Positions 28,840-61,419 of a stretch of 64,000 bases of DNA are shown in pieces. Position 1 is the first letter of the stretch. Each line of letters begins with the position of its first letter. The translations under genes and the position numbers were made by a program. Source of the stretch: Chloroflexota bacterium (GTDB lineage Bacteria > Chloroflexota > Anaerolineae > Anaerolineales > Villigracilaceae); assembly GCA_013388855.1 (NCBI GenBank), contig JACAEM010000016.1, positions 186,001-250,000 of the forward strand. Direction: 5' to 3'. The notes beneath the pieces were generated by a model. That model was not told the origin of the DNA, searched no databases, and was given only the letters and a program-made list of their open reading frames with translations.

Positions 28840-28854
28840 TGTGACAAAGTCACA
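28840..28854. promoter_or_regulatory. Inverted repeat, possible Crp-family operator
   Basis: TGTGAC-AAA-GTCACA, a perfect palindrome with two TGTGA half-sites spaced 5 nt rather than the usual 6. It overlaps the crp-like stop codon and sits about 63 nt upstream of the DUF2892 start. Confidence 0.4.
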
Positions 28855-44440: not shown

Positions 44441-44473
44441 TTTTTCTCTCCTGTGGCGCATGGCAATCTGCGC

Positions 44474-45469
44474 CTACGCCTTCTGCCACGCGGGTTTCGC
44501 GGCTTTCATCAACGACCCCGCCAGATTGAATCGATAGACCTGTCCAACCGGGTCGGGGATTCCGTCGAGAATCCTTTCAATCTCCTCCGGTTCCCTGGCG
44601 TCAACGACGGAGGAGAAGGCTGTGATCAGTCGGGCACCATAATCGACCACACCCTCAGCCGGACCGTAACAGCCAATGCACTGTGCACCCGCGCTCGGGC
44701 AACGCGCGTTGCATCCGCTTCTGGTGGCGGGGCCGTTGCATGGAATACCCTGCTCAAGGAGACAAAGCGTCGGGTCTACAGGTGCAATATCCTGAATGCG
44801 CTTGAATTCCCTGATGAACTTCACGTTACGCGTCCGCTTGCATTCATCGCACACAGTTGAATTGCCTGCGCCGATGACCGCGCCCTTTGGCGGGAGCTGC
44901 GCCTCGTCGCGTAACACCTTGATAACGAGATCAACCACCGCTGCGATCTGATGCGACTCGGGCGGGCATCCCGGCATGTAGTAATCCACATCAACCACCT
45001 GATCGAGCGGGCGCAGGATCGGCTCCAACTTCGGGATGTGTAATTCGCCTTCGGGAACATCGAAGGAAACGCGTGGATAGATCTCGTGAGGATTATCAGT
45101 CGAGAGTGTACTGAACGCCGTATGGACGATCTCCCCTACTGGGCTGAGGTTCGCCAATCCAGGGATACATCCCTCGCAGGCGCATGAGCCGAACGCGACC
45201 AGAATCTTCGATTTTTGACGCAGGAGTTTGGCAAGATGTTCATTCTCATTGTTGCGGATTCCGCCGTTGAAGAGTGTGAGCAGGATCGAGCCATCCTCCA
45301 TGGCTTCGACATCCTTGTACTTGGCATCCATCGCCACAGGCCAGAAGACGACATCGAAGTTCGCATCCACATCCAGGATTTTTTCGTGGATGTTCAATAC
45401 CGCAATCTCACAGCCGCCGCAGGAGGCTGCCCAGTACATTGCGAATTTGGGTTTTCCATTGGATGTCAT
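44474..45469 (-). CDS. mvhG: NiFe-hydrogenase small subunit (MvhG-type)
   Basis: 331 residues. N-terminal AMYWAASCGGCEIAVLN (proximal FeS cluster ligands), VAFGSCACEGCIPGLANL and YYMPGCPPES. The C-terminal half has a further cysteine cluster (TVCDECKRTR, GIPCNGPATRSGCNARCPSAGAQCIGCYGP). It carries electrons from the NiFe site. There is no Tat signal, so the enzyme is cytoplasmic. Its start overlaps mvhD by 4 nt. Confidence 0.92.
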   Translation of the reverse strand: MTSNGKPKFAMYWAASCGGCEIAVLNIHEKILDVDANFDVVFWPVAMDAKYKDVEAMEDGSILLTLFNGGIRNNENEHLAKLLRQKSKILVAFGSCACEGCIPGLANLSPVGEIVHTAFSTLSTDNPHEIYPRVSFDVPEGELHIPKLEPILRPLDQVVDVDYYMPGCPPESHQIAAVVDLVIKVLRDEAQLPPKGAVIGAGNSTVCDECKRTRNVKFIREFKRIQDIAPVDPTLCLLEQGIPCNGPATRSGCNARCPSAGAQCIGCYGPAEGVVDYGARLITAFSSVVDAREPEEIERILDGIPDPVGQVYRFNLAGSLMKAAKPAWQKA

Positions 45470-45951: not shown

Positions 45952-47961
45952 TTACGCTTCAACCGGCTCGATGTTGCGAAGCAGTAACCCATCGATCTGA
46001 GCCAGAATCTGTTCGTTGCTGAATCCCGTTCCGCTGATCGCTCCTGCCGGGCAGGCCGCCACGCAGGTGCCGCATCCCTGACACAAAGCCGGGTTGATCT
46101 CGGTCACCATGCGGTCTTCCAGGAAGGAGATGGCGTTGAACGGACACAATCCATTGCAGATGCGGCAGCCGGAACACATCTCCTGGTCCACGCTGGCGCG
46201 CACCGGTTCGAGCGCCACTTCTTTTTGCAGGATCTTATCCAGCACCCGAGCCGAAGCCGCCGCCCCTTGTGCCACACTGGAAGGAATGTCCTTCGGTCCC
46301 TGCGCACAACCGGCGATGTAAATTCCCTCGGTCATGGTCGCCACTGGGTCGAGCTTGGGATGCTTCTCCGTAAACCAGCCATCGGTCGAACACGAAATCC
46401 CAAACAGTTTCCCAACTTCCTTGGCATCGGCTCGCGGCTGCAAGCCGCTTGAAAGGATGACCATATCCACCGGGATGCGCCTCTGCTTTCCGGCAAGCGT
46501 ATCCTCCACCTGGATGATGAGTTTTCCTTTTTCGCGTTCATTGCGCCCCGCGTCTGTGACCTCCGCCACCTTGCCGCGGACGAAGAGCGTTCCCTCTTCG
46601 AGCACGCGCTGATAAAACTCATCATACGCTTTGTATGCCGTGCGCATGTCGATGTAAAAGTTATAGACGGTTGCCCCTGTCCGCTCGTGGACGAGATGCG
46701 CGAATTTCAACCCCTGCATACAGCAGATGACCGAGCAATAATTGTTGAAATTCTTGTCGCGCGACCCCACGCAATGGATGATACCTACTGACTTCGGCGT
46801 GGTTTTTCCATCGCGCAGGACGATGTTGCCATTGGTCGGTCCTGCCGCGTTGCTCAGACGTTCAAACTCCAGGCTGGTGAACACATTCGGCAATCGACCA
46901 TACCCATAATTACTCACGCGCCGCGCATCAAACAGGTCATAGCCGGTGGCAAGGATGATATTGCCCACCTCCACATTCACAAGTTCATCCTGCTGGTTGA
47001 AATCGATTGCGCCCGTCGGACAGAATTTCTCACATGCCTTGCATGTGCCTTTAAGGAAATACGTGCAGTTCGCCTTGTCAATCACGGGATATTTCGGCAC
47101 GGCTTGAGCAAACGGCGTATACACCGCCTTGCGATAGCCAAGCCCCGCCTCGAACACATCGTCAATGACTTTCTTCGGGCATTTCTCTTCACAAATGCCA
47201 CAGCCTGTGCACAACTCTTCCTTGACACAACGCGCCTTCTTACGGATGGTCACATTGAAATTGCCTACAAAACCGGTCACCTTCTCCACTTCGCTCCAGG
47301 TCAGCAGGGTGATGTTGGGATGCGTCCCCGCCTCCACCATGCGCGGTGTGAGGATACAGGCGGAACAATCCAACGTTGGAAAGGTCTTGTCAAATTGCGC
47401 CATGTGCCCGCCGATGGACGGTTCCCGTTCGACAAGATAAACATGGAAGCCTGCGTTCGCAATCTCCAACGCCGCCTGGATTCCCGCGATCCCGCCGCCG
47501 ACTACCAACGTGTTCGGATTGATCGGGACTTTCAACTCTTCCAACGGGACATTCTCGATCACTCTGGACACCGCGCCTGATACCACCGCTTTCGATTTTT
47601 CTGTGGCAACGGCTTTATCCGTATGTACCCATGAGACCTGCTCACGGATCGAAGCCAATTCCACCAAATACGGATTCAATCCCGCGTTCTTTGCCGCCGT
47701 GCGAAAGGTCTTCTCATGCAAATGCGGTGAACATGCTGCAACAACCACGCGCGTCAACCCAAGTTCCTTGATGTCCTTCTCGATCAACTCCTGCCCGAGG
47801 CTGGAGCACATGAATTTGTACTCACGCGCGATGACCACGCCCTGGTGCTTCAACTTCTCCGCCGCCCAATTGGCGACATCCACCACATCCACCACCCCGG
47901 CAATATTCGAGCCGCAGTGACAGACGTAGACACCGACGCGTTCTTGTTTTATTTCACTCAT
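45952..47961 (-). CDS. hdrA: Heterodisulfide-reductase-type flavoprotein HdrA
   Basis: 669 residues. N-terminal CHCGSN segment, FAD loop VVGGGIAGIQAA (153-164), ferredoxin-type cysteines CTGCGICEEKCP, a CKACEKFCPTGAI cluster, and a C-terminal pair CSGCRICNGLCP and CQGCGTCVAACP. HdrA carries the bifurcating FAD that splits electrons from H2 between ferredoxin and the HdrBC branch. The ATG follows GGAGG and overlaps hdrB by 4 nt. This is the central protein of the cluster; no methanogenesis gene is present, so the HdrB substrate is not CoM-CoB. Confidence 0.94.
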   Translation of the reverse strand: MSEIKQERVGVYVCHCGSNIAGVVDVVDVANWAAEKLKHQGVVIAREYKFMCSSLGQELIEKDIKELGLTRVVVAACSPHLHEKTFRTAAKNAGLNPYLVELASIREQVSWVHTDKAVATEKSKAVVSGAVSRVIENVPLEELKVPINPNTLVVGGGIAGIQAALEIANAGFHVYLVEREPSIGGHMAQFDKTFPTLDCSACILTPRMVEAGTHPNITLLTWSEVEKVTGFVGNFNVTIRKKARCVKEELCTGCGICEEKCPKKVIDDVFEAGLGYRKAVYTPFAQAVPKYPVIDKANCTYFLKGTCKACEKFCPTGAIDFNQQDELVNVEVGNIILATGYDLFDARRVSNYGYGRLPNVFTSLEFERLSNAAGPTNGNIVLRDGKTTPKSVGIIHCVGSRDKNFNNYCSVICCMQGLKFAHLVHERTGATVYNFYIDMRTAYKAYDEFYQRVLEEGTLFVRGKVAEVTDAGRNEREKGKLIIQVEDTLAGKQRRIPVDMVILSSGLQPRADAKEVGKLFGISCSTDGWFTEKHPKLDPVATMTEGIYIAGCAQGPKDIPSSVAQGAAASARVLDKILQKEVALEPVRASVDQEMCSGCRICNGLCPFNAISFLEDRMVTEINPALCQGCGTCVAACPAGAISGTGFSNEQILAQIDGLLLRNIEPVEA

Positions 47962-48953
47962 TTCACCGCCTCCTTCTTCCCCTCCTGCTTGGTCCAGCGA
48001 CGCGGCATGGGCAACCCCTCATCCTTCTTCCGCGGCGCGGACGGTTCCTGTGTGACCGGCACTTCCACGCCGATGTTCGCCAGCGCATTCCGTGAACTGA
48101 CCAGTTCCGTGCCAATGCCCAATTCGTCCGGTTCCCTGCCGAACGCCAGCCCCATCAACTGTGTAAAGAACAGGATTGGCATGTGATAGTCCGTGCCAAA
48201 GAAGTGATTCATCTCGTTCTGGTAGGCATCGATATTCATCTGGCACATCGGGCAGACCGTCGCCATAAGATGCGCGCCGCGATCATCTGCGTCAGCCACG
48301 AGCCGCATGATCAACTCGAAGGCAGTTTCCGGTCCGATCTGAGTCATATGTCCGCCGCAACATTCCGTTGTGAGCGGATAATCGATCACATCCGCGCCCA
48401 AGGCGCGCAATAAATCATCCAATTCGGTGGGATGTTCATGATCCGACCAGCGGTTCTTATAGTCAGGCCGCGGCAACATACACCCCATGTACGGCACAAC
48501 CTTGAGTCCTTTCAGCGGTCGAACCACTGCGTTTCGGATCGCATCCAACCCGATATCATTGACCAGAATATCGATCAGGTGCCGTACATCGAGCGTACCG
48601 GGCGTATATTGCAACCCGCCCGCTGCGAGTGCTTCATTGACCTTGGCGCCCAGCGAGGGGCGTTCCTGCATGTAATGGTCTGCCTTGGCAAGGTTGAGGT
48701 AACAGGCGGAGCAGGGTGCAACGACCGTGCGTGTACCATTTTTTTGCTTCGCCGCCAGTGCCAGATTGCGAGCGATCAACGAATAGGCGGGGATCAGGTT
48801 GATGCCAAGGTATTCCGTTGCGCCACAGCAGTTCCAGTCATCGATCTCCTCGAAGTGAATGTCGAGCGGCTCGAGAATGGCGTTCATCGACTCCATGTAC
48901 GCCCTGGCGCTGGATTCCATCGAACAACCGGGGTAGAGAATGTATTTGTTCAT
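47958..48953 (-). CDS. hdrB: Heterodisulfide-reductase-type subunit B
   Basis: 331 residues with two CCG (cysteine-rich) domains: PGCSMESS...NCCGATEYLG...PCSACY and YMGCMLPRP...ECCGGHMTQI...CPMCQMN, which bind the non-cubane FeS clusters that reduce disulfides in methanogens. The start at 48953 (MNKYILYPGC) overlaps hdrC as ATGA. The physiological disulfide or other acceptor is unknown in this organism. Confidence 0.94.
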   Translation of the reverse strand: MNKYILYPGCSMESSARAYMESMNAILEPLDIHFEEIDDWNCCGATEYLGINLIPAYSLIARNLALAAKQKNGTRTVVAPCSACYLNLAKADHYMQERPSLGAKVNEALAAGGLQYTPGTLDVRHLIDILVNDIGLDAIRNAVVRPLKGLKVVPYMGCMLPRPDYKNRWSDHEHPTELDDLLRALGADVIDYPLTTECCGGHMTQIGPETAFELIMRLVADADDRGAHLMATVCPMCQMNIDAYQNEMNHFFGTDYHMPILFFTQLMGLAFGREPDELGIGTELVSSRNALANIGVEVPVTQEPSAPRKKDEGLPMPRRWTKQEGKKEAVK

Positions 48954-49543
48954 GAGGTCAACTCCAGTTGGCTGGCACATTTGAGAATGGCTTTCAACTG
49001 GTCCATGTGCTTGATCTTCTTCGGGGTGATCGCCATCCGCCCTTTTGTAATCATGCCAAAACCCATCGGCGCCATGCCAGGTAATCGCAATGGGAAATGT
49101 CTCAGATAGTGCCGCGAAGCCAATCCAAACTCAAAACTGCGACCATACGTTTCCACCATATCGACAAAGGTCTGTGAGAAATGCGGGGCCGTCGAATCCT
49201 TGTAGAGTTTGGCTTTAATTGCCATACTCTTGAGCGTGTACATCACATCCGCAATGTGCACCTCCTGTGGGCATCGCACTACACAGTGATAACAGGAGAC
49301 GCAGATCCATGGCGTATTGCTGCGCAACACTTCCTCGCGCATGCCCGCCCGCAACATTGCAAACAACATACGCGGCGTATGTTCCATATCCATGGCGGAT
49401 GGACAGGAACCGCCACATGTCCCGCACTGGATACACATTTCCAAATGGGAAACCCCGGCTGTTTTCATACTGACTTCATGCAATAGGGAAAGATCTTCCT
49501 CGCGCAAACGTGATAGGACTCTCTCATTGGTCATTTGGGGCAT
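48950..49543 (-). CDS. hdrC: Heterodisulfide-reductase-type subunit C
   Basis: 197 residues with two [4Fe-4S] motifs: CIQCGTCGGSCPSA and CVSCYHCVVRCPQ, then helical segments. It passes electrons between HdrA and HdrB. The ATG at 49543 follows GGAGG. It is the first gene of the unit, with a Crp-type palindrome about 120-140 nt upstream. Confidence 0.93.
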   Translation of the reverse strand: MPQMTNERVLSRLREEDLSLLHEVSMKTAGVSHLEMCIQCGTCGGSCPSAMDMEHTPRMLFAMLRAGMREEVLRSNTPWICVSCYHCVVRCPQEVHIADVMYTLKSMAIKAKLYKDSTAPHFSQTFVDMVETYGRSFEFGLASRHYLRHFPLRLPGMAPMGFGMITKGRMAITPKKIKHMDQLKAILKCASQLELTS

Positions 49544-49663: not shown

Positions 49664-49685
49664 ATTTGTGATTTTGTTCACAAAT
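49664..49685. promoter_or_regulatory. Crp-type operator upstream of the hdr-mvh operon
   Basis: Perfect 8-bp arms ATTTGTGA and TCACAAAT with a 6-nt spacer (TTTTGT), the canonical TGTGA-N6-TCACA arrangement. The centre lies about 131 nt before the hdrC ATG. The same core is at 60373-60390. Confidence 0.7.
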
Positions 49686-49761
49686 TCGAGTGTTGAATGT
49701 CATCCTGGTGTAATGCAAATCATCCTAACAGAGGTGGTTTCCGCGTCCCCGTTAACAATCA

Positions 49762-49804
49762 ATGAACGGGACCCGCCTGCTTCCAGGAACTGTGTCCCGT
49801 TCAT
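49762..49804. terminator. Hairpin after the 95-residue membrane protein gene
   Basis: Eleven-base arms ATGAACGGGAC/GTCCCGTTCAT with a 21-nt loop. No T-run follows on the minus strand, so a regulatory role is also possible. Confidence 0.45.
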
Positions 49805-49862
49805 CCATTTGCATCGCCACTACAGGATATTGTCTCCCGCCTCCTTTTCCATGACAGGCATT

Positions 49863-50150
49863 CTATTTCGTCCGACGGACAACCGACTCAGCCGGCTGAC
49901 GTACAAACAGGTAGATGGTAAGGATCACGATCATCCCGATCAACATGCCCAGAATCTCCGGGAACCTTTCAGCAAATTCGGCGGCGAATCCGCGTCCACC
50001 TGCGGTCACTGCCTGCTCGAAACTCAAAACAGCAAGTCTGATTTCGCTAAAGTGGAGGTCCACGTAAGCGACTCCCGCCAGGGCGACGATTGTAAACGGA
50101 ATAGCCAGGGCAAATGTCCAGAACACTCCTGCAAACGGTACTTTAAACAT
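49863..50150 (-). CDS. Small two-helix membrane protein
   Basis: 95 residues: two hydrophobic helices (FAGVFWTFALAIPFTIVALAG and ILGMLIGMIVILTIYLFV) around a charged extracytoplasmic or cytoplasmic loop. No family recognised. The ATG at 50150 follows GGAGG; an upstream in-frame start would run through a terminator hairpin. It lies between the response-regulator terminator and the hdr promoter. Confidence 0.75.
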   Translation of the reverse strand: MFKVPFAGVFWTFALAIPFTIVALAGVAYVDLHFSEIRLAVLSFEQAVTAGGRGFAAEFAERFPEILGMLIGMIVILTIYLFVRQPAESVVRRTK

Positions 50151-50210
50151 GGCAACCTCCTTTCTTTTAGTAACTGGTCGGAATCCATGTTTTCCATTTT
50201 CAAGATACAA

Positions 50211-50240
50211 AAAAGAATGCCGCCTTTCAATAGGCGGCAT
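50211..50240 (-). terminator. Rho-independent terminator after the NarL-type regulator
   Basis: Stem ATGCCGCCT/AGGCGGCAT, 6-nt loop. On the minus strand it is followed by TTCTTTTTTG. It ends the long cytochrome/two-component transcription unit. Confidence 0.85.
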
Positions 50241-50272
50241 AAGGCATTCTTATCATAGGGTATTAACCCTAC

Positions 50273-50926
50273 TTATGGTTTGATCAGTCCCTTCCGTATC
50301 GCGTACTTTACCAGTTCACTCCGACTATGAAGACCCAATTTGCCCATCAAATTTTCGCGATGACGCGCCACTGTATGAGAACTAATCGTCAGCAATTCGG
50401 CGATTTCATCGTTCGTCCTCCCATCTGCTAAAAGAGCAAGCACCTCCTGCTCACGCGGAGTCAGTCCGCTGATGGTCTCCTTCGCATCTTCCTCGCCGCC
50501 GCGCGCGAGAAAATCACTGACCAGAAGTTTCGCCAGAGAGGGATAGATGTAGGTCTCCCCGCGATGCGCTGCACGGATGGCCGTGATCAAATCATCGGGG
50601 GCAGCCCGCTTGGGCACATATCCTGAGGCGCCTGCCTGCAGCATCTCAAAGAAATATTGCTGGTCTTCATGGATGGTCAATGCCACCACAGCCACTTCAG
50701 GAAACAACTTCTTGATCTGCCGCGTGGCATCGATGCCGGATATATCCGGCAGGGTAATATCCATGATGACGACATCCGGTTTGAGACTTTCCACCAACCC
50801 CAGCGCCTGCTTCCCACTACTCGCCTCCCCCACAATTTTCAAGTCTTCCTGGTCTTCGAGCAACATTCGCAAACCGCTGCGAACCACCTCATGATCATCC
50901 ACCAACAACAGGCAGATTCTCGCCAT
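50273..50926 (-). CDS. NarL/LuxR-family response regulator
   Basis: 217 residues. Receiver domain with DD pocket, phospho-Asp56 in VIMDITLP and Lys in VPKRA; LuxR-type DNA-binding domain at the end (LTPREQEVLALLADGRTNDEIAELL). The start overlaps the 3' end of the sensor kinase gene by 32 nt, so the two are translated together. Its likely targets are the neighbouring cytochrome or hdr genes, which is inference. Confidence 0.94.
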   Translation of the reverse strand: MARICLLLVDDHEVVRSGLRMLLEDQEDLKIVGEASSGKQALGLVESLKPDVVIMDITLPDISGIDATRQIKKLFPEVAVVALTIHEDQQYFFEMLQAGASGYVPKRAAPDDLITAIRAAHRGETYIYPSLAKLLVSDFLARGGEEDAKETISGLTPREQEVLALLADGRTNDEIAELLTISSHTVARHRENLMGKLGLHSRSELVKYAIRKGLIKP

Positions 50927-52373
50927 CTTCCATCTCCTTGAAGGGCATGGTCACCTCCACAATCGTTCCCTTCCCAATCTCTGAAACAATCTGGCATTCT
51001 CCGCCAATCAACGCCACCCGTTCGATCATCCCCAACAGACCCCAGCATGGATAACCGGGCTTGTGGAGCGTCCCATCCACATCAAAACCACAACCGTTAT
51101 CCTCGATACGAATGCGGACATCCTTTTCGCCAAAGACGACAAGAACATCCGCTTTATCTGTCTTCGCGTGGCGGATGATATTCGTAATACTTTCCTGGAC
51201 GATTCGGAACAGGACTGTGCGGGCATCGATGGACAAAGGCGCTTCATCCCCCCGTGTGGAAACGGTCACCGACAAACCGAACCTTTCCTTCGCCTCGGCG
51301 CCGTACCAGCGAAGCGCCGCAACCAGTCCGAAATCATCCAACTGCGGCGGGTGAAGTCCGCTCACCAGGTTTTGCAGACCGGAGATACCCGCATCTACGA
51401 TACTCTGCAATTGACGCGCCTGCCCACTCACCTTCTCCGGCTTTGATACAGCGGTATCCGAAATTGCCCTCAACCCCAGGCCAAGCGCCGTCAAGGTTTG
51501 ACCCAATTCATCGTGCAGTTCGCGTGCAATTCGCTGACGTTCCAGTTCCTGTGCACGCACCGTTCGCCGCAACAATTCACCGCGCAACTCTTCCAGCCGC
51601 TTCCGTTCCGCCAGTTGGGCCTGGCTTAAGGCATCGATCTGCCGCCGCGTTTCCTCCTCGAATGCCCTCAGGGAATGGATAATCGCGACCGCCGCGATAC
51701 AAGCCATGACCGAACGAAAGAATTGGATCGGAACCCCAAACCAGCCCAGAAAAATTTCGGCATTGAGGAAACTCGATGGGAATACATTACTGGGCGCAAC
51801 AAATAGCTGCCCCACCCCTCCATATAAGCCGAAAGCCAGCGCACCAACGATCATATCCCTGCCAAATCCCCTCATCCCCGCCTGCAAAAATTTTTGACGT
51901 TGCAGGATCAATCCCCACGCCGTGAGTGCCGCGCCAGGGATTGCCAGCGAATAACGTGTATATACATCCAGCGCCACCAGCCTGGAGTCTGATGGTTCAA
52001 AAATGAACAGCCAAATCAACCCCACTGCCCAAATGATGGTGATCACTCCGAGCATCTGCCAGGATAACCGTGCCCGGTTCGGTCCGGCAATCAAACGGGC
52101 GCCGAACGAGATCAGGAACAGAAACGAAACCGCCAGCAGAATCACCCTGCCGGGACCAATAAACTGATAAAAGAATGTACTTTCCACATCAGGGTGAATC
52201 AACAGGAACATTTCGATCCATTCGTGTCCCCCATGAATGATCCCGAATCCGGCAAGCGAACGCAGAGCGCGGGCAAAGTCTAATTCAGAAGAACGGTCTA
52301 CTTCTAACAGTACAGCCAGCCCCATACTGAAAAAGGACAGACCGTAGAAGAAGTAGACCGTTATGATGTCCAC
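50895..52373 (-). CDS. Membrane sensor histidine kinase (NarX/HisKA_3 type)
   Basis: 492 residues. About seven membrane helices (1-235) with a HGGHEWIEM segment near the membrane, a coiled linker, HisKA_3 with His287 in ERQRIARELHDELGQ, and HATPase_c (DNGCGFDVDG, GLLGMIERVALIGG). No PAS or HAMP domain is present, so sensing should be through the membrane part. GTG start with a weak ribosome site. It begins 23 nt after the cytochrome b-c fusion gene, implying co-transcription with that electron-transfer set. Confidence 0.9.
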   Translation of the reverse strand: MDIITVYFFYGLSFFSMGLAVLLEVDRSSELDFARALRSLAGFGIIHGGHEWIEMFLLIHPDVESTFFYQFIGPGRVILLAVSFLFLISFGARLIAGPNRARLSWQMLGVITIIWAVGLIWLFIFEPSDSRLVALDVYTRYSLAIPGAALTAWGLILQRQKFLQAGMRGFGRDMIVGALAFGLYGGVGQLFVAPSNVFPSSFLNAEIFLGWFGVPIQFFRSVMACIAAVAIIHSLRAFEEETRRQIDALSQAQLAERKRLEELRGELLRRTVRAQELERQRIARELHDELGQTLTALGLGLRAISDTAVSKPEKVSGQARQLQSIVDAGISGLQNLVSGLHPPQLDDFGLVAALRWYGAEAKERFGLSVTVSTRGDEAPLSIDARTVLFRIVQESITNIIRHAKTDKADVLVVFGEKDVRIRIEDNGCGFDVDGTLHKPGYPCWGLLGMIERVALIGGECQIVSEIGKGTIVEVTMPFKEMEDGENLPVVGG

Positions 52374-52396
52374 AGGGTAATCCCAGCGTTATTTGT

Positions 52397-53575
52397 CTAT
52401 TCCGGCGCTCCTGCATCGATCCACTGCTGGACTCTGACAATCTCCTCGGCAGTCAATTGTCCAAAATGCCCTCCCGCAGATTGCACTTTGAACAGACTGC
52501 TGTTCACGCTGTCGCCCGGAACGACAACCGGACCATTTGTTCCGCCTTTCATGATACTCTCATACGAGTCAAATGCCAATCCAGTGGATGTATCCGCCCC
52601 ATGGCACATGCCGCATTTGGATTGAAGCAAAGGCGCAATTCCCGCCGACCAGTTCAAAGTCCCGGAAGAGGCGCCCGAAGACTCTCCAGCCGCCGGTTCA
52701 GTCGGGATCGGAGTCGGGGTCACAGGGACAAATACCTCCACGGTCTCGCCCGTATCAGGGTCAACCACCGCCGTGGATTCGTACCCGACAAAATAGTAGA
52801 AACCGAACGCAAAGAGGGCAAGGATGACGACTGCAATCGGGGCATAGATCATCTGCCGTTTGCGAAGGACGGCGGGGGGGATAGGCTCCTGATGTTTGCC
52901 CGCTTCGATCATTGCCAGTTCAGCGGGATGCTCGTGTTCCATTTCCTCACGGCTGAGTTTGCCGGTGAACATGCTCTTGTTGAAATGCTTGATATGCACA
53001 TGATAGAAATGCCAGATGATGATGGCAAGCACTGCAAGCACCGCCTCCCCGCCATGTGCGGCTTTGGCGGCGGGTACGGCTTCGCCCGGCAAAAATCGCA
53101 GGGTGGTGATTGGGTTCCACATCATGAAACCGGTCAGTCCCATGACGATGGTTCCCCAAATCAGCGCAAGGTACTCCATCTTTTCGGCATACGAATACCG
53201 CCCATAATAGGCCTTGTGTTTCTTGAAACCAAGGTAATACTGGATATCATGCAGAACATGTTTGGCATCGTCAATCCACGGAATCATGGAGATGGGCGTA
53301 CGCAGAACCAGAATCCGGTACGTCACCTCCAGCACATGGAAAACACTCACGATCATCATTGCAATCGCCGAAGCATGATGGATGGCGCGTATTCTTTCCA
53401 CGCCACCCACCGCCTCAAAGATCGCCAGGCTGATGGGCGAGAGGGGGAATTTTTGGGGCAATCCTGTGAAGCCCAGCAACGTGAAGGAAATCAAAAAGAC
53501 AATATGCTGAACTCTCTGGATGAGGTCGAACCGGACATAGGTCTTCACGGAGGAGGCTTCAGTTGACTTAGTCAC
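52397..53575 (-). CDS. Membrane cytochrome b fused to a monoheme cytochrome c domain
   Basis: 392 residues. A cytochrome b561-like membrane domain with four main helices (about 15-210) carries heme-ligand histidines in RVQHIVFL, IRAIHHASA, KAAHGGEAVLA and IIWHFYHVHI. A fifth helix (about 255-275) and a Pro/Thr linker lead to a C-terminal cytochrome c domain with CGMCH. GTG at 53575 follows GGGAGG and overlaps the upstream gene by 8 nt. It is a duplicate of the cytochrome b at 55010-55735 with the c domain added. It probably exchanges electrons between menaquinol and the multiheme partner. Confidence 0.87.
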   Translation of the reverse strand: MTKSTEASSVKTYVRFDLIQRVQHIVFLISFTLLGFTGLPQKFPLSPISLAIFEAVGGVERIRAIHHASAIAMMIVSVFHVLEVTYRILVLRTPISMIPWIDDAKHVLHDIQYYLGFKKHKAYYGRYSYAEKMEYLALIWGTIVMGLTGFMMWNPITTLRFLPGEAVPAAKAAHGGEAVLAVLAIIIWHFYHVHIKHFNKSMFTGKLSREEMEHEHPAELAMIEAGKHQEPIPPAVLRKRQMIYAPIAVVILALFAFGFYYFVGYESTAVVDPDTGETVEVFVPVTPTPIPTEPAAGESSGASSGTLNWSAGIAPLLQSKCGMCHGADTSTGLAFDSYESIMKGGTNGPVVVPGDSVNSSLFKVQSAGGHFGQLTAEEIVRVQQWIDAGAPE

Positions 53576-55013
53576 GGTCTGCCTCCCTTTCGCTGGAGTC
53601 TGCATCCGTTTCCTCCGATTGTCCTTCTCGACGCGGCGGCTCCTCACCCAGTGTATCGGGCTTTTCCTCCGCCTGTTCCTGCGGCGCCTCGACAGGTTGT
53701 TCCTCAACCGCCTCAACAGTGGAGGATTCCATCGATTCGACCGGCGTTTCCTCCACTGTTTCGGCGGGCGGTTGTTCATCCTTCACTTCTACTTCGGCAG
53801 GCGTCTCCGTCACATCTTCAGCGATTACGTCCGCCCCCGCCGCGACCGCCACAGGCTTCGTCCTTCTGAAACGATTGATCATCATGCGGCCAAAATCCAT
53901 CACTACCAGGATGAGCATTGGCCCCAATACTGCGGGGATGAAGAACTTGTAGAACAGGTCAACATAATACACAACAGGATACTTCTCCGGCGAAGGAATG
54001 TAATGCGACATCCACGCATCGGGGAAGTTCGCTGTAGCATCCGGATGGCATTGCTGGCATTTTGTCAGGATGTTTTGCCGTACACGCAATCCTTTTTCAG
54101 GGTCGTCCGCACTGACGATATCGTGAATCCCATGACAGTCATAACAAACCGGTTTGTCGGTGACGGCATCCGGCGAAACCTTTTCGAAAATGGTCACTGT
54201 CGTGCCATGGAAGTCAGCCACATAAGTGTTGAGCACCTGCGTGGAGATCCCATACCGATCCATGATCGCAGCGTTGGTATGACAACCGGCACACAACTGC
54301 GGTGAACTCAGCCGGAACGCTGTCGTCGTAGGGTCTTCGATGACATGCACACCGTGACAATCAATGCAGGTCGGCACATCCACATTATTCTCATTGATCA
54401 ACGCCGAGCCATGCACGCTTTCCTTATATTTATCGAAGATGGCGCTATGACATTGCTGACAGGTCTGCGCAATCCATATTCTCGTTCCCGGCAATTGCTG
54501 CCCAGTCACCGGGTACCTCAATCGCCGCACTTCATGGGCAGTATGACAATCCGTGCAGACAGCTGCCTCCATCTTCCCCTCTGAACGGGCAAGTGCATGC
54601 ACGCCGTCCTTCTCCTGATCGGCCTGGGTCGCGTGACAGTTGGCGCAAGTTTCATTCAACTTGATGGTCGCGGCGCGCAGGCTTTCCACCTCGAATCCAT
54701 GTCCAGGGCTGGGTCTGAAGCCCACGTGACAATCCACGCATTTCACGCCGCTCTCGCCATGGACCGAATGATCATATTTTTCGGCATCGACAAAAAGCTT
54801 GAGCGTTTCCCCATTATCCGCCTGAGTCTCCAACGCTTCGACTTGATGACATTTCAGGCAGGCGGAATTATCCGCCGGTTCATCCTGGATTTGGGGAATT
54901 GCCGCCTCCACTTCAAGACCCGATCCCGCCGAGGCTTGCGAAGAGGCGAATCCAAAACTGACGAGGGATACCAACAACCCGGTAACAATAAGAGAGGCGC
55001 GTAGTCGCATCAC
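53568..55013 (-). CDS. Nine-heme c-type cytochrome, membrane anchored, acidic tail (copy 2)
   Basis: 481 residues. Signal peptide, nine CxxCH sites (CLKCH, CVDCH, CANCH, CTDCH, CQQCH, CIDCH, CAGCH, CYDCH, CQQCH), one membrane helix (about 362-382) and a C-terminal Glu/Pro-rich tail of about 85 residues that would lie in the cytoplasm. The heme domain matches the gene at 55732-56841. It overlaps the cytochrome b gene before it by 4 nt and the b-c fusion gene after it by 8 nt. Confidence 0.9.
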   Translation of the reverse strand: MMRLRASLIVTGLLVSLVSFGFASSQASAGSGLEVEAAIPQIQDEPADNSACLKCHQVEALETQADNGETLKLFVDAEKYDHSVHGESGVKCVDCHVGFRPSPGHGFEVESLRAATIKLNETCANCHATQADQEKDGVHALARSEGKMEAAVCTDCHTAHEVRRLRYPVTGQQLPGTRIWIAQTCQQCHSAIFDKYKESVHGSALINENNVDVPTCIDCHGVHVIEDPTTTAFRLSSPQLCAGCHTNAAIMDRYGISTQVLNTYVADFHGTTVTIFEKVSPDAVTDKPVCYDCHGIHDIVSADDPEKGLRVRQNILTKCQQCHPDATANFPDAWMSHYIPSPEKYPVVYYVDLFYKFFIPAVLGPMLILVVMDFGRMMINRFRRTKPVAVAAGADVIAEDVTETPAEVEVKDEQPPAETVEETPVESMESSTVEAVEEQPVEAPQEQAEEKPDTLGEEPPRREGQSEETDADSSEREADRD

Positions 55014-55735
55014 TTCTCCCCTCCGGATTCCCCGGTCAGGCGTTCATATTCCTTCTCATGAAATTCACGCATATCCCGCTCGCCCAAACGACCAGTAAAC
55101 ATACTCAGGTTTGTCCGCTCCACATGGACGTGATACACATGCCAGACAACGATGAAGATTGCGGCAACCACCGCTTCAGTGCTGTGCGCCAGTTTCGCAG
55201 CAGGCACCACCCCGCCCGGGAGGAATTGAGTGAAAAAGATCGGGAACCAGATAATGAATCCGCTGACGCCCATGATCAGAAATCCGAAGAAAATGAACCA
55301 ATAGGTCACCTTCTGCTCGAAGTTATACCGTCCGAATTTGGGTTTGTCACTGCGCAGAAACAGGAGGTATTGCAACATATACCCGGCATCGCGCACATCC
55401 TGCCAGGTCGGCAGAAGGTCTCCCGGCAAACGCCGCTTTACCATCAGGTAAATGATGCGCCCGAGGTGATAAACCGCTTCCAATGCCAGAACAACCGCGG
55501 CAATGTGATGGATAGTACGAATCAATTCCACACGATCCGGAGTCGATAGCAAGTCCTGGCTGATTGACAATTCTCGGTACTTTTGCGGTAATCCCGTCAA
55601 CAGCAGGACCAATCCGCTGATCAACGCAACGGCGTGTTCCCACCGTTGAGCAACGGTAAAACGCGGGAAGGTTCTTTCCTGATGCACAATTTGTCCTCGG
55701 ATAGCCTGTGGAGTATTTTTTCTCTTTCCGCTCAT
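55010..55735 (-). CDS. Membrane cytochrome b (b561-like)
   Basis: 241 residues, four main membrane helices with histidines in QRWEHAVAL, RTIHHIAAV, KLAHSTEAV and VVWHVYHVHV, typical of diheme quinone-interacting cytochromes b. It is homologous to the b domain at 52397-53575 (shared GLPQK, VPAAK, SMFTG). It overlaps the 9-heme gene upstream and downstream by 4 nt each, so the chain is translated as a unit. Confidence 0.88.
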   Translation of the reverse strand: MSGKRKNTPQAIRGQIVHQERTFPRFTVAQRWEHAVALISGLVLLLTGLPQKYRELSISQDLLSTPDRVELIRTIHHIAAVVLALEAVYHLGRIIYLMVKRRLPGDLLPTWQDVRDAGYMLQYLLFLRSDKPKFGRYNFEQKVTYWFIFFGFLIMGVSGFIIWFPIFFTQFLPGGVVPAAKLAHSTEAVVAAIFIVVWHVYHVHVERTNLSMFTGRLGERDMREFHEKEYERLTGESGGEK

Positions 55736-56841
55736 GGCAGGTTTCTCCTCACGCGGTCAACGGTCGCGCGGATGATTTGCAGGGCCACATAGATGATGCA
55801 CGTCCACAATACGAACGGCGTGAACGATGTATAAAACTTCTCGACATAGAACAAGGCAGGCGTGCGCTCAAGGCTGATCTCATTGTGTCCCGTCCAGGCA
55901 TCGGTCCAATTAGGGCCGGCAGTGGGATGACATTGCTGACAGGTGGTAAGCAGGTTATTCGGGTTCACCTTCGACTGCGGATCGTCCGTCGAGCGAATAT
56001 CGTGAATGCCGTGGCAATCGGAACACACCGCGCTGTCATGCCAGATGGTGGGCCACTTTGCCTTGTACACAGAGACATCCACTCCATGCCAGGAACGTTT
56101 GTAGATGCTATACACATCCGCAGAAAGTCCGTATTTTTTCATCAGTTCTTCATTGGCATGGCAGCCGGCGCACAACTCAGGTTCTGCCACGCGGAACTGG
56201 GAGGTCCGCGGGTCCTGAATGTTATGCACACCATGACAATCCGTGCAGACTGGGACATCCGGGTTTTCGTCTGCCATCAACGCCGCGCCATGGACGCTTT
56301 GACGATACGTATCAACAATCTCCGCATGGCACTGGCGGCATGTTTCAGAAATCAACGAACGAGGCTCATCCGGCGGGCGGACATCATGTGCGCCATGGCA
56401 GTCAGTGCAGATGGGCGCATCCAGGTTGCCCGCCTCCGCCGCCTGGGCATGCATACTGTCCTGTGCTTTTTCGTAATTCACCGAGTGGCACTTCTCGCAG
56501 GTCTGATAGAAAGCCCGCGAGAGCTCCCGCCCGGTCTCATATTTCAACTCAGGATGCGGATAGGTTGTTATCTCAGTATGGCAGGCTTCACATTCGATCC
56601 CTTTGGAGCTGTGAACGGAATGATCGAGAGCATCCTGTGAGATATAGAGGGAGAGCCCCTCCCCGCTTGGGAGGGTCATGCGAAGGTCCTGGTTACCGTG
56701 ACAGGATAAACAATATTTTTCAGTCTCTTGCAACGGATGCTCAGCGCTGGCAGGTGATGCCAATGAAAGACTTAATAGCAGGACAAACGTGCCTGCCGCG
56801 ATCAACCAGAACGTCTGACGATGAAAGTTACGCGTTGTCAT
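55732..56841 (-). CDS. Nine-heme c-type cytochrome, membrane anchored (copy 1)
   Basis: 369 residues. Signal peptide ending SPASAEH, nine CxxCH sites (CLSCH, CEACH, CEKCH, CTDCH, CRQCH, CTDCH, CAGCH, CSDCH, CQQCH) and a C-terminal membrane helix (about 333-355). It shares strings such as CHGVH, CAGCH, CHGIHDI and the TTCQQCHP-like end with copy 2, but lacks the acidic tail. It should transfer electrons outside the membrane to or from the partner cytochrome b. Confidence 0.9.
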   Translation of the reverse strand: MTTRNFHRQTFWLIAAGTFVLLLSLSLASPASAEHPLQETEKYCLSCHGNQDLRMTLPSGEGLSLYISQDALDHSVHSSKGIECEACHTEITTYPHPELKYETGRELSRAFYQTCEKCHSVNYEKAQDSMHAQAAEAGNLDAPICTDCHGAHDVRPPDEPRSLISETCRQCHAEIVDTYRQSVHGAALMADENPDVPVCTDCHGVHNIQDPRTSQFRVAEPELCAGCHANEELMKKYGLSADVYSIYKRSWHGVDVSVYKAKWPTIWHDSAVCSDCHGIHDIRSTDDPQSKVNPNNLLTTCQQCHPTAGPNWTDAWTGHNEISLERTPALFYVEKFYTSFTPFVLWTCIIYVALQIIRATVDRVRRNLP

Positions 56842-56844
56842 GTG

Positions 56845-57045
56845 TCAGGACTCCTTCTTTTTCTTCATCTTTTCAGACGAGGGGGTATCGCTCTCATCAT
56901 ATTCAGCGGGAGGTTCCGGCGATTCTGCAACCAACCCCAACCTTCTGAGCAGATAGGAAATTCCAAACAGAATAGCCAATGGGACCAGACAGCGTAATAC
57001 GAACAACAAAACAACAATTACCGGACTGGCGGATGTTTCATTCAT
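56845..57045 (-). CDS. Small membrane protein with charged tail
   Basis: 66 residues: one hydrophobic helix (VIVVLLFVLRCLVPLAILFGI) and a Glu/Ser/Lys tail ending KKKKES. No family recognised. The ATG at 57045 follows GGAGGG. It lies 3 nt before the first 9-heme gene, as first gene of that unit, so a small assembly or structural subunit of the cytochrome complex is plausible. Confidence 0.7.
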   Translation of the reverse strand: MNETSASPVIVVLLFVLRCLVPLAILFGISYLLRRLGLVAESPEPPAEYDESDTPSSEKMKKKKES

Positions 57046-57116
57046 CGCTTTTCCCTCCACGGCAGACACTTCCAAACGCTCGCAACGAGTGGATTGGTCA
57101 TTGCATCTCCAGAGTT

Positions 57117-57136
57117 AAGATTAAAAAATTAATCTT
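57117..57136 (-). promoter_or_regulatory. Leader hairpin / promoter region of the 9-heme unit
   Basis: AAGATTAA/TTAATCTT with a 4-nt loop, 72 nt upstream of the 66-residue gene. A TATACT -10-like element lies just before it on the minus strand (about 57147). Confidence 0.4.
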
Positions 57137-57198
57137 CGCTAAGTATAACCTAAACATTTCACATGATGAAAATGGATGGACATTGTCAATAAAACCCA

Positions 57199-57229
57199 AA
57201 ATAGCGAAATCTTGGCGATTTCGCTATTT
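57199..57229 (-). terminator. Terminator after the NrfD gene
   Basis: Perfect 13-bp stem AAATAGCGAAATC/GATTTCGCTATTT with a 5-nt loop, followed on the minus strand by a T-rich tail. It separates the octaheme/FeS/NrfD unit from the 9-heme unit. Confidence 0.8.
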
Positions 57230-57246
57230 GAGTGGACTAATTTCTA

Positions 57247-58476
57247 TTAATGTTCCTGTTTTTCAAACAGAGGCAGGAAACGCACCGCCAAAGTGATCAC
57301 CGTCAACGCGTACCCGATTACAAGAATAACCACACCCCATTCGATCGGCGCTGGAAAATATCTGCCAATGGGAAGTGAGTACGCAGTGCCCGGGGAGTAG
57401 GAAAGCGGCACGAACAACCCGCCAACTGTTACATTCCAACGGTGGAGGATGATTCCTACCATGGCAGACAACGCACCTAACACCGCTGCCGCAGGATTCT
57501 TGCTGAAACGAGGCACAAGGAACAGGATTGCAGGGAGGAGAATGCCGAGGATCACCTCTCCCACCCAAAAGGAGAAGGGATACGGGGTCTGTTCCTGTAG
57601 TAATGCAAATGCGGAACTGACTCCGGGGGTGCGTCCGTAATACGTCACCGCTGCCAAATCCCAGAATTTGATGTAACCGTATGCCAGCAGACCGACTCCG
57701 CTAAAACGGGTGATGATCCGCAAGACATCATGCGGAACGGTACGTTTTCCAATAATCCATTCCACCACGTAGGCGACCGCCACAGTGACAGCAGGTCCCG
57801 TCGCGATGGCTGATAACACAAACATAATGGGCATACTCGGCTTGAACCAGATCGGGCGCGACTTGATCACGCCGTAGGTTGCGCCCAGGGAGGATTGATG
57901 CAGGAGGGAGATCAACAGACCAAGCACCGCCAGGAAGGGTGTCAACTTGTGCAGGAAATGGCCCAATCGGCGGATCTTTGGCCATTTATCAAAGAATTTT
58001 GCTTCGACAATCACAGGAGCAAATTCGGTCAACAGAATCATCAGGTAGATCGTGATGCACATCGTGACTTCCCATAACACCGAATGGACATTCCAAAACA
58101 CCCAGGGATGCCAGAAGCGATCTGGTCGCCCGATATCCATCAACAACGTCAGCATGGCTGAGGTATATCCTGCAAACCCGACTAACACAGCCAGGCGGAT
58201 GACAGGCTGTAATCGTTTGATGCCAAAGATATAAACCACCGCAGACAAGGTAAAAGCGCCTGACCCCAAGGCAATCGACGACAGGTCAACCGTGATCCAC
58301 AAGCCCCACGGCACCGAATCGCTCATGTTGGTAATATACAAGCCCTTGATGAAGACTGTGATGGCAGAATAAAGACCGATCACCAGCAAGACGCCCAGAA
58401 AGCCCATCCAGATCAGAAAGGCCCTACTGAATGGAAGTTTGAACGGTTGTTTTTGTGTGAGCGCTGAAGTGGACAT
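57247..58476 (-). CDS. NrfD/PsrC-type membrane quinol oxidoreductase subunit
   Basis: 409 residues with about ten membrane helices. NrfD-type features: an early NMSDSVPWGLWITVDLSSIALGSGAF segment, GYTSAMLTLLMDIGRPDRFW and FHRWNVTVGGL-like (LHRWNVTVGGLF) near the C-terminus. It binds menaquinol and passes electrons to the FeS subunit. The start abuts the FeS gene stop. No molybdopterin or other catalytic subunit is encoded nearby. Confidence 0.92.
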   Translation of the reverse strand: MSTSALTQKQPFKLPFSRAFLIWMGFLGVLLVIGLYSAITVFIKGLYITNMSDSVPWGLWITVDLSSIALGSGAFTLSAVVYIFGIKRLQPVIRLAVLVGFAGYTSAMLTLLMDIGRPDRFWHPWVFWNVHSVLWEVTMCITIYLMILLTEFAPVIVEAKFFDKWPKIRRLGHFLHKLTPFLAVLGLLISLLHQSSLGATYGVIKSRPIWFKPSMPIMFVLSAIATGPAVTVAVAYVVEWIIGKRTVPHDVLRIITRFSGVGLLAYGYIKFWDLAAVTYYGRTPGVSSAFALLQEQTPYPFSFWVGEVILGILLPAILFLVPRFSKNPAAAVLGALSAMVGIILHRWNVTVGGLFVPLSYSPGTAYSLPIGRYFPAPIEWGVVILVIGYALTVITLAVRFLPLFEKQEH

Positions 58477-59322
58477 TTAGATGCCCTCCTTTGGCGGGAT
58501 ATAGTACACGCTGGTCTCCGTTCCAAGTTCGTCGCGCAGGCGCAAGGTCGGGTTTGAAGCGATCAGCTGCGAGACTTTACTGTTCGGGTCTTTCAAATTT
58601 CCGAAGGTACGCGCACCTACCGGGCAAATGTTTACACAGGCTGGGGTCGCTTCGCGGTCCACCCCGGGAACGAGTCCCTTTTCCAAGCCGGCATCGATGC
58701 GATGGATGCAGAATGTACATTTCTCGACCACACCACGCGGACGGCGCTCCACCTCAGGATCCCCCCAGGTGGGAACGTACGGATTCTCGTCGTTTCGTTC
58801 CTCCCAGTTGAACTGGCGCGCGTCATATGGACATGCCACCTGGCAATAACGACAACCGATGCAACGGTCATAATCCATGACCACAAGTCCATCTTCGCGG
58901 TGATAGGTTGCCTTCACCGGGCAGACTTCCACACAAGGTGCGTTTTGGCAGTGTAGGCAGGGACGGCTCAGGAAGAAGGTGGCGCCGCCCGATGTCTTCT
59001 CCGGCACAACGATATTCCACGGCTCATCAGCACGGACGTCGTTGGTGGCACAACAAGCGCGCATGCAATACTCGCATCCAATGCATTGATCGAGGCTGAT
59101 GACCATGCCCCAGTGATAATCGCCGGTAACTGCACCATGACCGATCTGCTCATCCCCTTCCAGCTGTTCCTGTTTGAGTTGTCCGAACGGTGAAAGAGGA
59201 CCGGTGGTAAGCAGAGGCGCTGCAATAATGGAACCGACAGCCGCGGCTGCTACTTTGAGGACATCACTGCGGGTCAGTTCGACAACAACTTTCTTCTTAA
59301 CTTTTTTCTTCTGTGTCGTCAT
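58477..59322 (-). CDS. Four-cluster ferredoxin-like subunit (NrfC/DmsB/HybA type)
   Basis: 281 residues. Four [4Fe-4S] cysteine groups: CIGCEYCMRACC, CLHCQNAPCVEVCP, CIGCRYCQVACP and CTFCIHR...CVNICP. The N-terminus is Lys-rich, followed by LTRSDVLKVAAAAVG, which resembles a Tat signal with only one arginine of the pair. The ATG at 59322 follows GAGGAAA and overlaps the octaheme gene by 26 nt. It links NrfD to the multiheme cytochrome. Confidence 0.92.
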   Translation of the reverse strand: MTTQKKKVKKKVVVELTRSDVLKVAAAAVGSIIAAPLLTTGPLSPFGQLKQEQLEGDEQIGHGAVTGDYHWGMVISLDQCIGCEYCMRACCATNDVRADEPWNIVVPEKTSGGATFFLSRPCLHCQNAPCVEVCPVKATYHREDGLVVMDYDRCIGCRYCQVACPYDARQFNWEERNDENPYVPTWGDPEVERRPRGVVEKCTFCIHRIDAGLEKGLVPGVDREATPACVNICPVGARTFGNLKDPNSKVSQLIASNPTLRLRDELGTETSVYYIPPKEGI

Positions 59323-60301
59323 TTTCCTCGACCTCCACGATACGAATACGGCGGCTGACCACCCAGGCGGCAGCGCCGCCGACCACCAAACCGACAATGG
59401 CGCCCTGTATCAAGCCGGTATAAAGCCGGACAGTGCTCTGTGACTCCAAAGTCTCAATCGTCTGCTCCTGTTCACTGACCTTCTTCTGTAATTCTTCTGA
59501 AGTCGGTACATTCCCGGTTTGTTCGCCGGTCAGTTGAACGATGGTGTCACGGGTATGGACAGTGTCCTTGTGACAATTGATGCATGCTTCCGAGCCCACG
59601 GTAAATGTGTGTCCAGTTGCGAACAAACCGCCGGTGGAAGTGGTGTGTGATGCGGCTGCCATGTGGCAGTCACTGCACTGCAAACCGGAATTGGCATGTG
59701 TGCCGTGAGTGAATGAAGAACCGGTATCCTTGTGGCAGTTGGTGCACAATTCATTGACGGTCTCTGCGCGCGGTGCCTGTGAATGTGGATTGTGGCAGGC
59801 CTCGCAGTTCAAATTGATCTGTCCATGTTTGCTGGCACGCCATTCATCTGTCGTCGTCTTATGACAGCTGGCACACAAAGTGTAATCAGGTGTGACTGGC
59901 ATGGGCGTTCTGGGATGTTCTTTCTGCAAAGGACCATGACAGGCCTCACAGGTTACCCCCTCTTCAGCAAACTTGCCCGAAGTCTTGTCGAAACCGGTTG
60001 TATGACATTCCAGACAGGCGGTGGCCGAACCTTGCTTTGTCCAATCCTCCTGGAAAATGGGGGAGGAGAAAGCCTGAGCATGGAGCGTGCCGGACCAAGT
60101 TTCGTGAATATCCTTGTGACATCCAGCGCAGGCATCAGCACCATAATAGGTCGTGCCATCTTGAGGGTAAGGGGCAGCGTCTGGGGAAGCGGAGACAGGC
60201 TGGGCAAGGCTAATCGCCACTCCCACTGCGAGACAAATCGCAAAGACCAGAGAAAATGTTACCCACACTGATTTTCCAAAAGGCGGTACGGGTTTCTTCA
60301 T
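59297..60301 (-). CDS. Octaheme c-type cytochrome, anchored at both ends
   Basis: 334 residues. N-terminal signal/anchor, eight CxxCH sites (CAGCH, CLECH, CEACH, CASCH, CEACH, CTNCH, CSDCH, CINCH), a short coiled-coil stretch (LQKKVSEQEQTIETLESQS) and a C-terminal membrane helix with an acidic end. It is the expected electron acceptor or donor of the FeS/NrfD pair. The ATG follows AGGAGAATG. A Crp-type palindrome is 72-90 nt upstream. Confidence 0.9.
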   Translation of the reverse strand: MKKPVPPFGKSVWVTFSLVFAICLAVGVAISLAQPVSASPDAAPYPQDGTTYYGADACAGCHKDIHETWSGTLHAQAFSSPIFQEDWTKQGSATACLECHTTGFDKTSGKFAEEGVTCEACHGPLQKEHPRTPMPVTPDYTLCASCHKTTTDEWRASKHGQINLNCEACHNPHSQAPRAETVNELCTNCHKDTGSSFTHGTHANSGLQCSDCHMAAASHTTSTGGLFATGHTFTVGSEACINCHKDTVHTRDTIVQLTGEQTGNVPTSEELQKKVSEQEQTIETLESQSTVRLYTGLIQGAIVGLVVGGAAAWVVSRRIRIVEVEENDDTEEKS

Positions 60302-60862
60302 TGTTACATTCTCCTATTATTAGTGATTTCTTCCACGCTAGTTCGAGTAAATCAGGATAAATCTGGTTATATTTGTGAATTTTATCACAATGAGTTAAGA
60401 ATATTTTAATTTATTATCCGGTTTTATATAGTGTTGAATATCATAAATTTCATGTGATTTACAGAAATGCTATTACTATTACTTATACAATGGGCATAAT
60501 ACAATCTTATGGTCCATGTGCAATGACGGCTACATCCATCTTCCCCTCTCGTTCATTATTTCCCATTAGCAGATAATAAATTGAAATTTTTTTCAGTGCA
60601 AGAAAGGTCAATAAACGGGAGTAGCCACTCACCAGTCAGAGGCGAGTTACCGGTAGACGAGATCATCATGGATAGAAAAACCTTCAGGCGATGATCGTTT
60701 CGTCCGGGAAACAAATTCTTTCAAGAGTACAAATGGGACAAATTCGGGGAAGTTTTATGACATTCATCTAAAGCCCTTCTCAGCGACCATTAATCTGTAC
60801 ATGTACAATGTATGTAACTTCACCAGATTTATAAAAAATATGCAGGTGACATCGGAGGCAAA
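60302..60862. other. Divergent regulatory region, octaheme operon / ccmE
   Basis: 561 bp, strongly AT-rich near 60340-60500, no gene seen. It contains the Crp-type palindrome at 60373-60390 and a perfect TGTACATGTACA palindrome at 60796-60807 shortly before ccmE. Confidence 0.65.
60373..60390. promoter_or_regulatory. Crp-type operator upstream of the octaheme/FeS/NrfD operon
   Basis: TTGTGA and TCACAA separated by six bases (ATTTTA). The centre is about 80 nt before the octaheme ATG. The same core sequence and spacing as the hdrC-upstream site. Confidence 0.7.
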
Positions 60863-61345: not shown

Positions 61346-61352
61346 GGGATCA

Positions 61353-61386: not shown

Positions 61387-61419
61387 GCCGTCTTACGAAC
61401 CGGTTTTCGAGGAGTTTTC

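Follow-up and report, generated by a model that had tools for sequence, protein, structure and literature searches.

The stretch of DNA analyzed here, referred to as the window, spans 64,000 nucleotides of contig JACAEM010000016.1 from a Chloroflexota bacterium of the Anaerolineales (family Villigracilaceae; assembly GCA_013388855.1). It carries two minus-strand gene runs annotated with redox functions, one beginning with an HdrC-like gene (the hdr-mvh run) and one with an octaheme cytochrome gene, together with the gene of a CRP/FNR-family regulator, here named P0001 (Table 1). An original prediction, made from the sequence letters and their open reading frames, had placed perfect copies of TTGTGA-N6-TCACAA upstream of both runs, with longer arms at the first, and had suggested that they form a shared regulon under the regulator at 28850. 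On re-reading, ATTTGTGATTTTGTTCACAAAT is indeed a perfect palindrome with 8-base arms (core 18-mer, 49666-49683), and TTGTGAATTTTATCACAA is a palindrome with 6-base arms. Measured to the gene starts used here, the former lies 122 bases ahead of hdrC (49543) and the latter 71 bases ahead of the octaheme gene (60301), so that the placement of both sites ahead of redox operons is confirmed.

Table 1. Predicted operators and genes of the window considered in the text.
Feature	Coordinates	Strand	Basis and remarks
CRP-type operator (predicted), ATTTGTGA-N6-TCACAAAT	49664..49685	.	Upstream of hdrC; motif scan, family footprint
CRP-type operator (predicted), TTGTGA-N6-TCACAA	60373..60390	.	Upstream of octaheme gene; motif scan, 6 close orthologs
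HdrC-like 4Fe-4S protein, first gene of hdr-mvh run	48950..49543	-	Pfam and NCBIfam, below NCBIfam cut-offs
HdrB-like CCG-domain protein	47958..48980	-	Domain/family searches
HdrA2-like flavoprotein	45952..47961	-	Domain/family searches
Hydrogenase small subunit, VhuG-like	44474..45469	-	Domain/family searches
[NiFe] hydrogenase large subunit, VhuA-like	42974..44461	-	Domain/family searches
Octaheme c-type cytochrome (8 CXXCH), first gene of its run	59297..60301	-	Domain search
DsrO/QrcC-like Fe-S protein	58477..59397	-	Below NCBIfam cut-offs
NrfD-family membrane subunit, QrcD-like	57247..58476	-	Below NCBIfam cut-offs
CRP/FNR-family regulator P0001, recognition helix SSREVISR	28850..29524	-	PF00027 and PF13545
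Presumed P0001 operator, TGTGAC-N3-GTCACA (= TGTGA-N5-TCACA)	28840..28854	.	Overlaps P0001 stop codon
YgaP-like_TM (DUF2892) small membrane protein, 66 aa	28577..28777	-	PF11127, 73 bits; next gene after P0001 palindrome
Thioredoxin-domain protein with YgaP-like_TM match	28010..28519	-	Domain search; downstream of 28577..28777

Perfect copies of the motif are rare. The window held these two, compared with none across 100 shuffles, and no other match even when up to two mismatches were allowed; at that tolerance, two is an ordinary number (2.65 expected), while the shorter core TGTGA-N6-TCACA was in mild excess at up to two mismatches (39 versus 27 expected). The original prediction had named a motif common at random in intergenic DNA as the outcome that would count against it and had called for a genome-wide scan for enrichment at redox genes. 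In that scan (4.03 Mb in 46 contigs, with the reversed motif as control), we found five perfect sites versus none for the control and, at up to one mismatch, 18 versus four. Fifteen of these 18 lay ahead of a gene or at its opening codons, and most of the genes concerned are redox or energy genes. The other three (on contigs C34, C39, and C14, the last at 8686) lay inside genes or at their ends and look like chance occurrences, of which the control gives four.

The perfect sites precede nrfHA (on contig C15, outside the window), the hdr-mvh run, the octaheme gene, an XRE-cupin regulator gene followed by a multiheme cytochrome gene (C10), and a methylmalonyl-CoA decarboxylase-like gene (mmdA, TTGTGAAATTATTCACAA; C41), where the site overlaps the earliest start. 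NrfH scored above its NCBIfam cut-off and NrfA below its own. Among the genes with one-mismatch sites are those for NDH-2, multiheme cytochromes, a ferritin-like protein, and GAPDH, as well as a HoxE/NuoE-like gene with two such sites in tandem; the names GAPDH, XRE-cupin, ArsR-like, and NosL-like, here and below, were assigned by eye. XRE-cupin-like regulator genes adjoin CRP-type sites and multiheme cytochrome genes at two separate loci (L030, 2912-2929; L014, 10075-10092). Two tandem operator-like sites also precede an uncharacterized membrane operon on C19 (L032, 2849-5060), which encodes membrane proteins of 509 and 217 amino acids. The larger of these had no Pfam, PDB, or NCBIfam match, so that the nitric oxide reductase suggested by its look found no backing in those searches, and the smaller had no Pfam match.

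Conservation was assessed in a sample of 100 family genomes drawn from a larger group, in which perfect sites numbered 126, compared with six for the control, and 54 genomes held at least one. For each ortholog, the footprint was taken as the best upstream match with up to two mismatches, with starts projected from the query and upstream stretches of 380 bases for the first set of loci and of 551 bases or shorter for lower-ranked ones. The nrfHA site is the most strongly conserved of the set, being found at 24 of 30 nrfH loci and 16 of 21 lower-ranked ones (40/51 together; reversed control, 0/51). The hdr site is well supported by conservation (24/30 and 6/10 lower-ranked hdrC loci, 30/40 together; reversed control, 0/40). 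Support for the octaheme site is weak and comes from its perfection in two genomes and from its place: among six close orthologs (70 to 100% identity, own genome included), two sites were perfect, two carried two mismatches, and two carried three. That the palindromes are chance products of AT-rich intergenic DNA is thus very improbable, given the counts against shuffles and against the reversed motif in genome and family, and for the hdr site the family footprint largely rejects it; such a view could draw on the three sites that fall within genes or at their ends, and on the weak conservation of the octaheme site, at which the control also gave one match in six.

A separate question is which protein reads these sites. 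The regulator at 28850 was put forward because it has Arg187, Glu188, and Arg192. P0001 does carry these residues, and the pattern Arg-Glu-x3-Arg is invariant in the 24 ortholog loci with a readable helix (orthologs were taken at >190 bits, with a clear score gap, and occur in 24 of the 100 genomes; fragmentary matches of 61 to 78% identity in G005, G007, and G085 were counted as absent). However, the genome encodes four clear CRP/FNR proteins, and two of them, P0001 and a paralog named P0002, have the Arg-Glu-x3-Arg helix; the residue set therefore cannot single out P0001.

When the surroundings of P0001 orthologs were searched for conserved palindromes of whatever kind, a core, GTGAC-N3-GTCAC, emerged, lying directly behind the regulator gene at all 23 loci examined (the partial ortholog of G086 excluded), 19 of them exact and four with one mismatch, with the consensus TGTGAC-TTT-GTCACAGAC. 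In the window, this palindrome is the sole match at up to two mismatches (2.37 expected). It has no T run behind it there and is therefore not an ordinary terminator. Its spacing (N5) is one base shorter than that of the hdr and octaheme sites (N6).

P0002 (C15:232633-233319) lies ~3.7 kb from the nrfHA operator and has a PF13545 domain; its CRP-type NCBIfam matches span nearly the full length but score below cut-off. Its recognition helix reads TVREVVAR, and TVREVV[AS]R was found at all 30 loci read, out of 55 genomes with an ortholog (>235 bits, in 55 of the 100 genomes; next matches, at most 137 bits). P0002 orthologs and nrfH adjoin in many family genomes; in the genome studied here, the interval between them (L015, 4583-9063, on C15) holds small copper chaperone-like and DeoR/NosL-like genes, as named by eye. 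The number of perfect sites per genome follows P0002 (1.75 with it versus 0.67 without; Mann-Whitney, 9e-4) and shows no association with P0001 (1.29 versus 1.25). Likewise, 38 of 43 genomes that have P0002 keep the nrfH site, versus two of eight that lack P0002 (Fisher, 5.9e-4); the four nrfH genomes with P0001 but no P0002 (G052, G053, G081, and G091) all lack the site. The hdr site, in Fisher tests over 39 loci (G053, with ~100 bases upstream, was left out), did not track P0001 (11/14 with, 19/25 without).

Taken together, these patterns incline us, by a modest margin over even chances, to read both window sites as CRP/FNR-type operators of a small set of anaerobic-respiration and energy promoters, most likely read by a paralog other than P0001, while P0001 reads its own N5 palindrome. 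P0002 is the best candidate reader for nrfHA on the strength of gene position and co-occurrence, and it is plausible as the reader of the two window operons. Several observations weigh against this reading. Nor does the hdr site follow P0002 (19/27 with, 11/12 without), and its retention in 11 of 12 genomes without P0002 means that another protein must read it in some relatives. Nineteen of the 55 genomes with P0002 hold no perfect site. At up to two mismatches, the octaheme site was matched in four of the six close orthologs, compared with one of six for the control, and upstream of remote octaheme homologs (33 to 40% identity, probably not true orthologs) the motif and its control each matched at one of 24 loci. 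The family genomes are, moreover, related rather than independent, so that the P-values above are optimistic and serve as a guide, and draft genomes can miss genes. In a separate tally, the spacers of 75 of the 126 perfect sites gave no clear separation of genomes with and without P0002.

That P0001 itself is the reader of the two N6 sites and governs a redox regulon we consider improbable. Beyond its contact residues, this assignment could point to G052, where P0001 occurs together with a perfect hdr site in the absence of P0002, and to G042, G004, and G061, where an N6-type site with one mismatch lies 230 to 270 bases before the P0001 ortholog. In five genomes without P0002 (G052, G094, G023, G072, and G077), recognition helices were read at the 14 HTH_Crp loci that scored highest, with the L225 alignment out of register, and Arg-Glu-x3-Arg appeared just in the P0001 of G052. 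Yet the P0001 loci hold a conserved palindrome of their own, found also behind homologs in other phyla, and P0001 shows no association with motif number, hdr site, or nrfH site; it is probably not the reader of the N6 sites. Of the shared regulon first proposed, the regulon itself thus remains plausible, because the motif is rare genome-wide, most of its sites lie upstream of genes, and the hdr site is conserved in the family, whereas its placement under P0001 is not supported.

A different reader altogether, the NADH/NAD+ sensing repressor Rex, could account for some or all of the sites, making the set a mixture of Rex and CRP-type targets or entirely Rex; we regard this as a possible, if rather doubtful, explanation. 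The Rex operator described from Staphylococcus aureus, TTGTGAAW4TTCACAA (PMC2883068), overlaps the N6 motif as TTGTGAA-N4-TTCACAA, and in Desulfovibrio, Rex is described as binding sites identical to those of HcpR1 (PMC5701242). The genome has a rex gene (one PF06971 match, C15:165915-166061, 69.7 bits), and matches occur in 90 of the 100 family genomes, so that co-occurrence hardly tests Rex; the hdr site persists in six genomes that have neither P0001 nor P0002 (G023, G043, G072, G077, G090, and G094), and all six have Rex. Going by the target habits of Rex and CRP, the sites before mmdA and the NDH-2, HoxE/NuoE-like, and GAPDH genes fit the Rex consensus or resemble Rex targets, and these sites may be Rex targets. 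The inner bases speak otherwise for nrfHA and hdr. At positions 7 and 12, the 40 nrfH sites never have A7 or T12 (C7, 32/40; G12, 33/40), and among the 30 hdr sites, A7 occurs in seven, T12 in nine, and both in two, compared with C7 in 13 and G12 in 12. Because these bases depart from the Rex operator, we conclude that nrfHA would not be a Rex target and that hdr is less likely one. Further, the nrfH site is missing in six of the eight genomes without P0002, though all eight have a PF06971 match, and of the four hdr genomes without such a match, three drafts (G032, G051, and G086) keep the site and G013 does not. On the coding strand, the window sites read A7/A12 (hdr) and T7/T12 (octaheme), each fitting Rex on one side. 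The 18 sites of the genome are probably a mixture.

Upstream of 15 of 30 rex genes (L247-L276), at a nearly constant place ~200 bases before the Rex recognition helix, lies a palindrome of the type TTGTG-N5-TTG[CT]ACAA, in some cases with changes in the first arm; it is possibly autoregulatory and is not of the TTGTGA type. As a sign of another type of Rex operator, and hence an argument against Rex at the N6 sites, it was set aside, since TTGTGC-N6-GCACAA is not enriched in the genome (one versus two for the control at one mismatch).

If a CRP/FNR paralog is the reader, as we favor, then a nitrogen-oxide or redox signal would cause a CRP/FNR dimer to bind the N6 palindromes and to switch nrfHA and, probably, the hdr-mvh and octaheme/NrfD runs. 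Here, binding by any protein, the sign of regulation, and the signal are all points that we infer. Activation at nrfH is a guess prompted by how far upstream of the projected gene start the site begins (64 to 90 bases in the 24 loci of the first set that have the site).

The closest described parallel is the HcpR regulon, in which a CRP/FNR regulator with R, E, and R at helix positions 1, 2, and 6 recognizes TTGTGA-N6-TCACAA at anaerobic energy genes (PMC545781, PMC1274295; for Desulfovibrio desulfuricans HcpR1, PMC5701242). A sensor plus HTH_Crp architecture is shared by P0001 (PF00027 and PF13545) and P0002 (PF13545, with the NCBIfam matches below cut-off), both have the three residues, kept in 24 and 30 loci, respectively, and the nrfHA site, a predicted operator, fits the HcpR motif and co-occurs with P0002. 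For Desulfuromonas and Geobacter, nrfHA and ndh are among the predicted HcpR targets, there under another, FNR-like motif (PMC545781, PMC1274295), whereas in D. desulfuricans no HcpR site is reported before nrfHA (PMC5701242); in Porphyromonas gingivalis HcpR, Met68 is implicated in heme/NO sensing (PMC12750200). Unlike HcpR regulons, the set here includes the hdr-mvh and octaheme/NrfD runs, the palindrome beside P0001 has N5, and no hcp was recognized beside the 18 genome sites, hcp itself not having been searched for. The best PDB matches of P0002 are also not HcpR but other CRP/FNR entries (4byy, 4cyd, 3r6s, and 3d0s), which are actinobacterial. HcpR membership is not claimed here, though the operator, the contact residues, and some targets (nrfHA and ndh) match. 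The core TGTGA-N6-TCACA and the three contact residues, with roles as described in PMC1274295, are also those of Escherichia coli CRP; unlike it, P0001 and P0002 reach 42 and 66.3 bits against an NCBIfam CRP equivalog cut-off of 266, and the palindrome of P0001 is one base shorter. With the S. aureus Rex operator, the N6 sites share the outer arms and the redox/energy targets, while positions 7 and 12 mismatch at nrfHA and mostly at hdr.

The more unusual result, compared with the N6 sites of the window, is the P0001 palindrome. An 18-mer of its consensus, TGTGACTTTGTCACAGAC, occurs exactly in 65 stretches of a public genome collection (84,980 species by its description), compared with ~7 expected from uniform base counts. 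In 45 of these, some from one genome, a same-strand P0001 homolog ends beside the palindrome; in three the homolog is divergent, in three it lies elsewhere in the stretch, and in 14 there is none. By record title, the 45 comprise 20 Chloroflexota, 21 Gammaproteobacteria or unspecified proteobacteria, two Nitrospirae, one Leptospiraceae, and one Bacteroidetes, and many of the homologs outside Chloroflexota are just 33 to 44% identical. By a crude test, 37 of the 45 stretches with a homolog have a small hydrophobic open reading frame behind the palindrome, versus six of the 14 without. This linkage and conservation suggest that P0001 binds the palindrome at 28840-28854, which is probably the cognate operator of an uncharacterized CRP/FNR group; P0001 would then read TGTGAC-N3-GTCACA before the genes for the YgaP-like membrane protein and the thioredoxin-domain protein. 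We lean slightly towards a broader view. In it, P0001 belongs with its homologs to one widespread group of CRP/FNR regulators, present in Chloroflexota, Gammaproteobacteria, Nitrospirae, and other lineages and unnamed in the literature searched, whose unusually rigid operator immediately follows the regulator gene and in most cases precedes a gene for a small membrane protein; operator spacing, five versus six bases, would then keep P0001 and P0002 apart within one cell.

The closest PDB relative of P0001 is 3dv8, a CRP/FNR-family protein of solved structure (residues 50-220; helix SHREVITR), for which the PDB listing states no operator or target. A target set of Bradyrhizobium NnrR, blr5774-trxC-DUF2892 (PMC6710368), likewise joins a CRP/FNR regulator to a thioredoxin/DUF2892 pair as beside P0001, but with an operator of the type TTGATCTTGCTCAA and another gene order. 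RedB was weighed as a match for P0001 and rejected, its motif being reported as non-palindromic and AT-rich (PMC9603854).

Some features of the window runs and their surroundings are of interest in their own right. In the hydrogenase large subunit, residues 11-440 match VhuA and residues 445-468 match VhuU, both below cut-off, so that it looks like two methanogen subunits in one protein. A response regulator (50273-50926) and a histidine kinase (50895-52373), together a two-component system, are encoded between the octaheme and hdr-mvh runs and could act as a co-controller of both. The cytochrome c maturation genes for CcmE and CcmF (60863-63483) are divergent from the octaheme run, and the site at 60373-60390 could therefore serve both directions.

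In the literature searched, by titles and abstract starts, no such regulon has been described in relatives of the Anaerolineales; the nearest study, on an anammox community with Anaerolineales genomes among its members, treats a CRP/FNR meta-regulon (PMC8510549). P0001 and P0002 have the same contact residues and are separated by operator spacing and co-occurrence, and the three-residue CRP code alone therefore does not tell which paralog reads a site. For relatives of the Anaerolineales, the sites described here provide a testable operator set for the control of anaerobic respiration.

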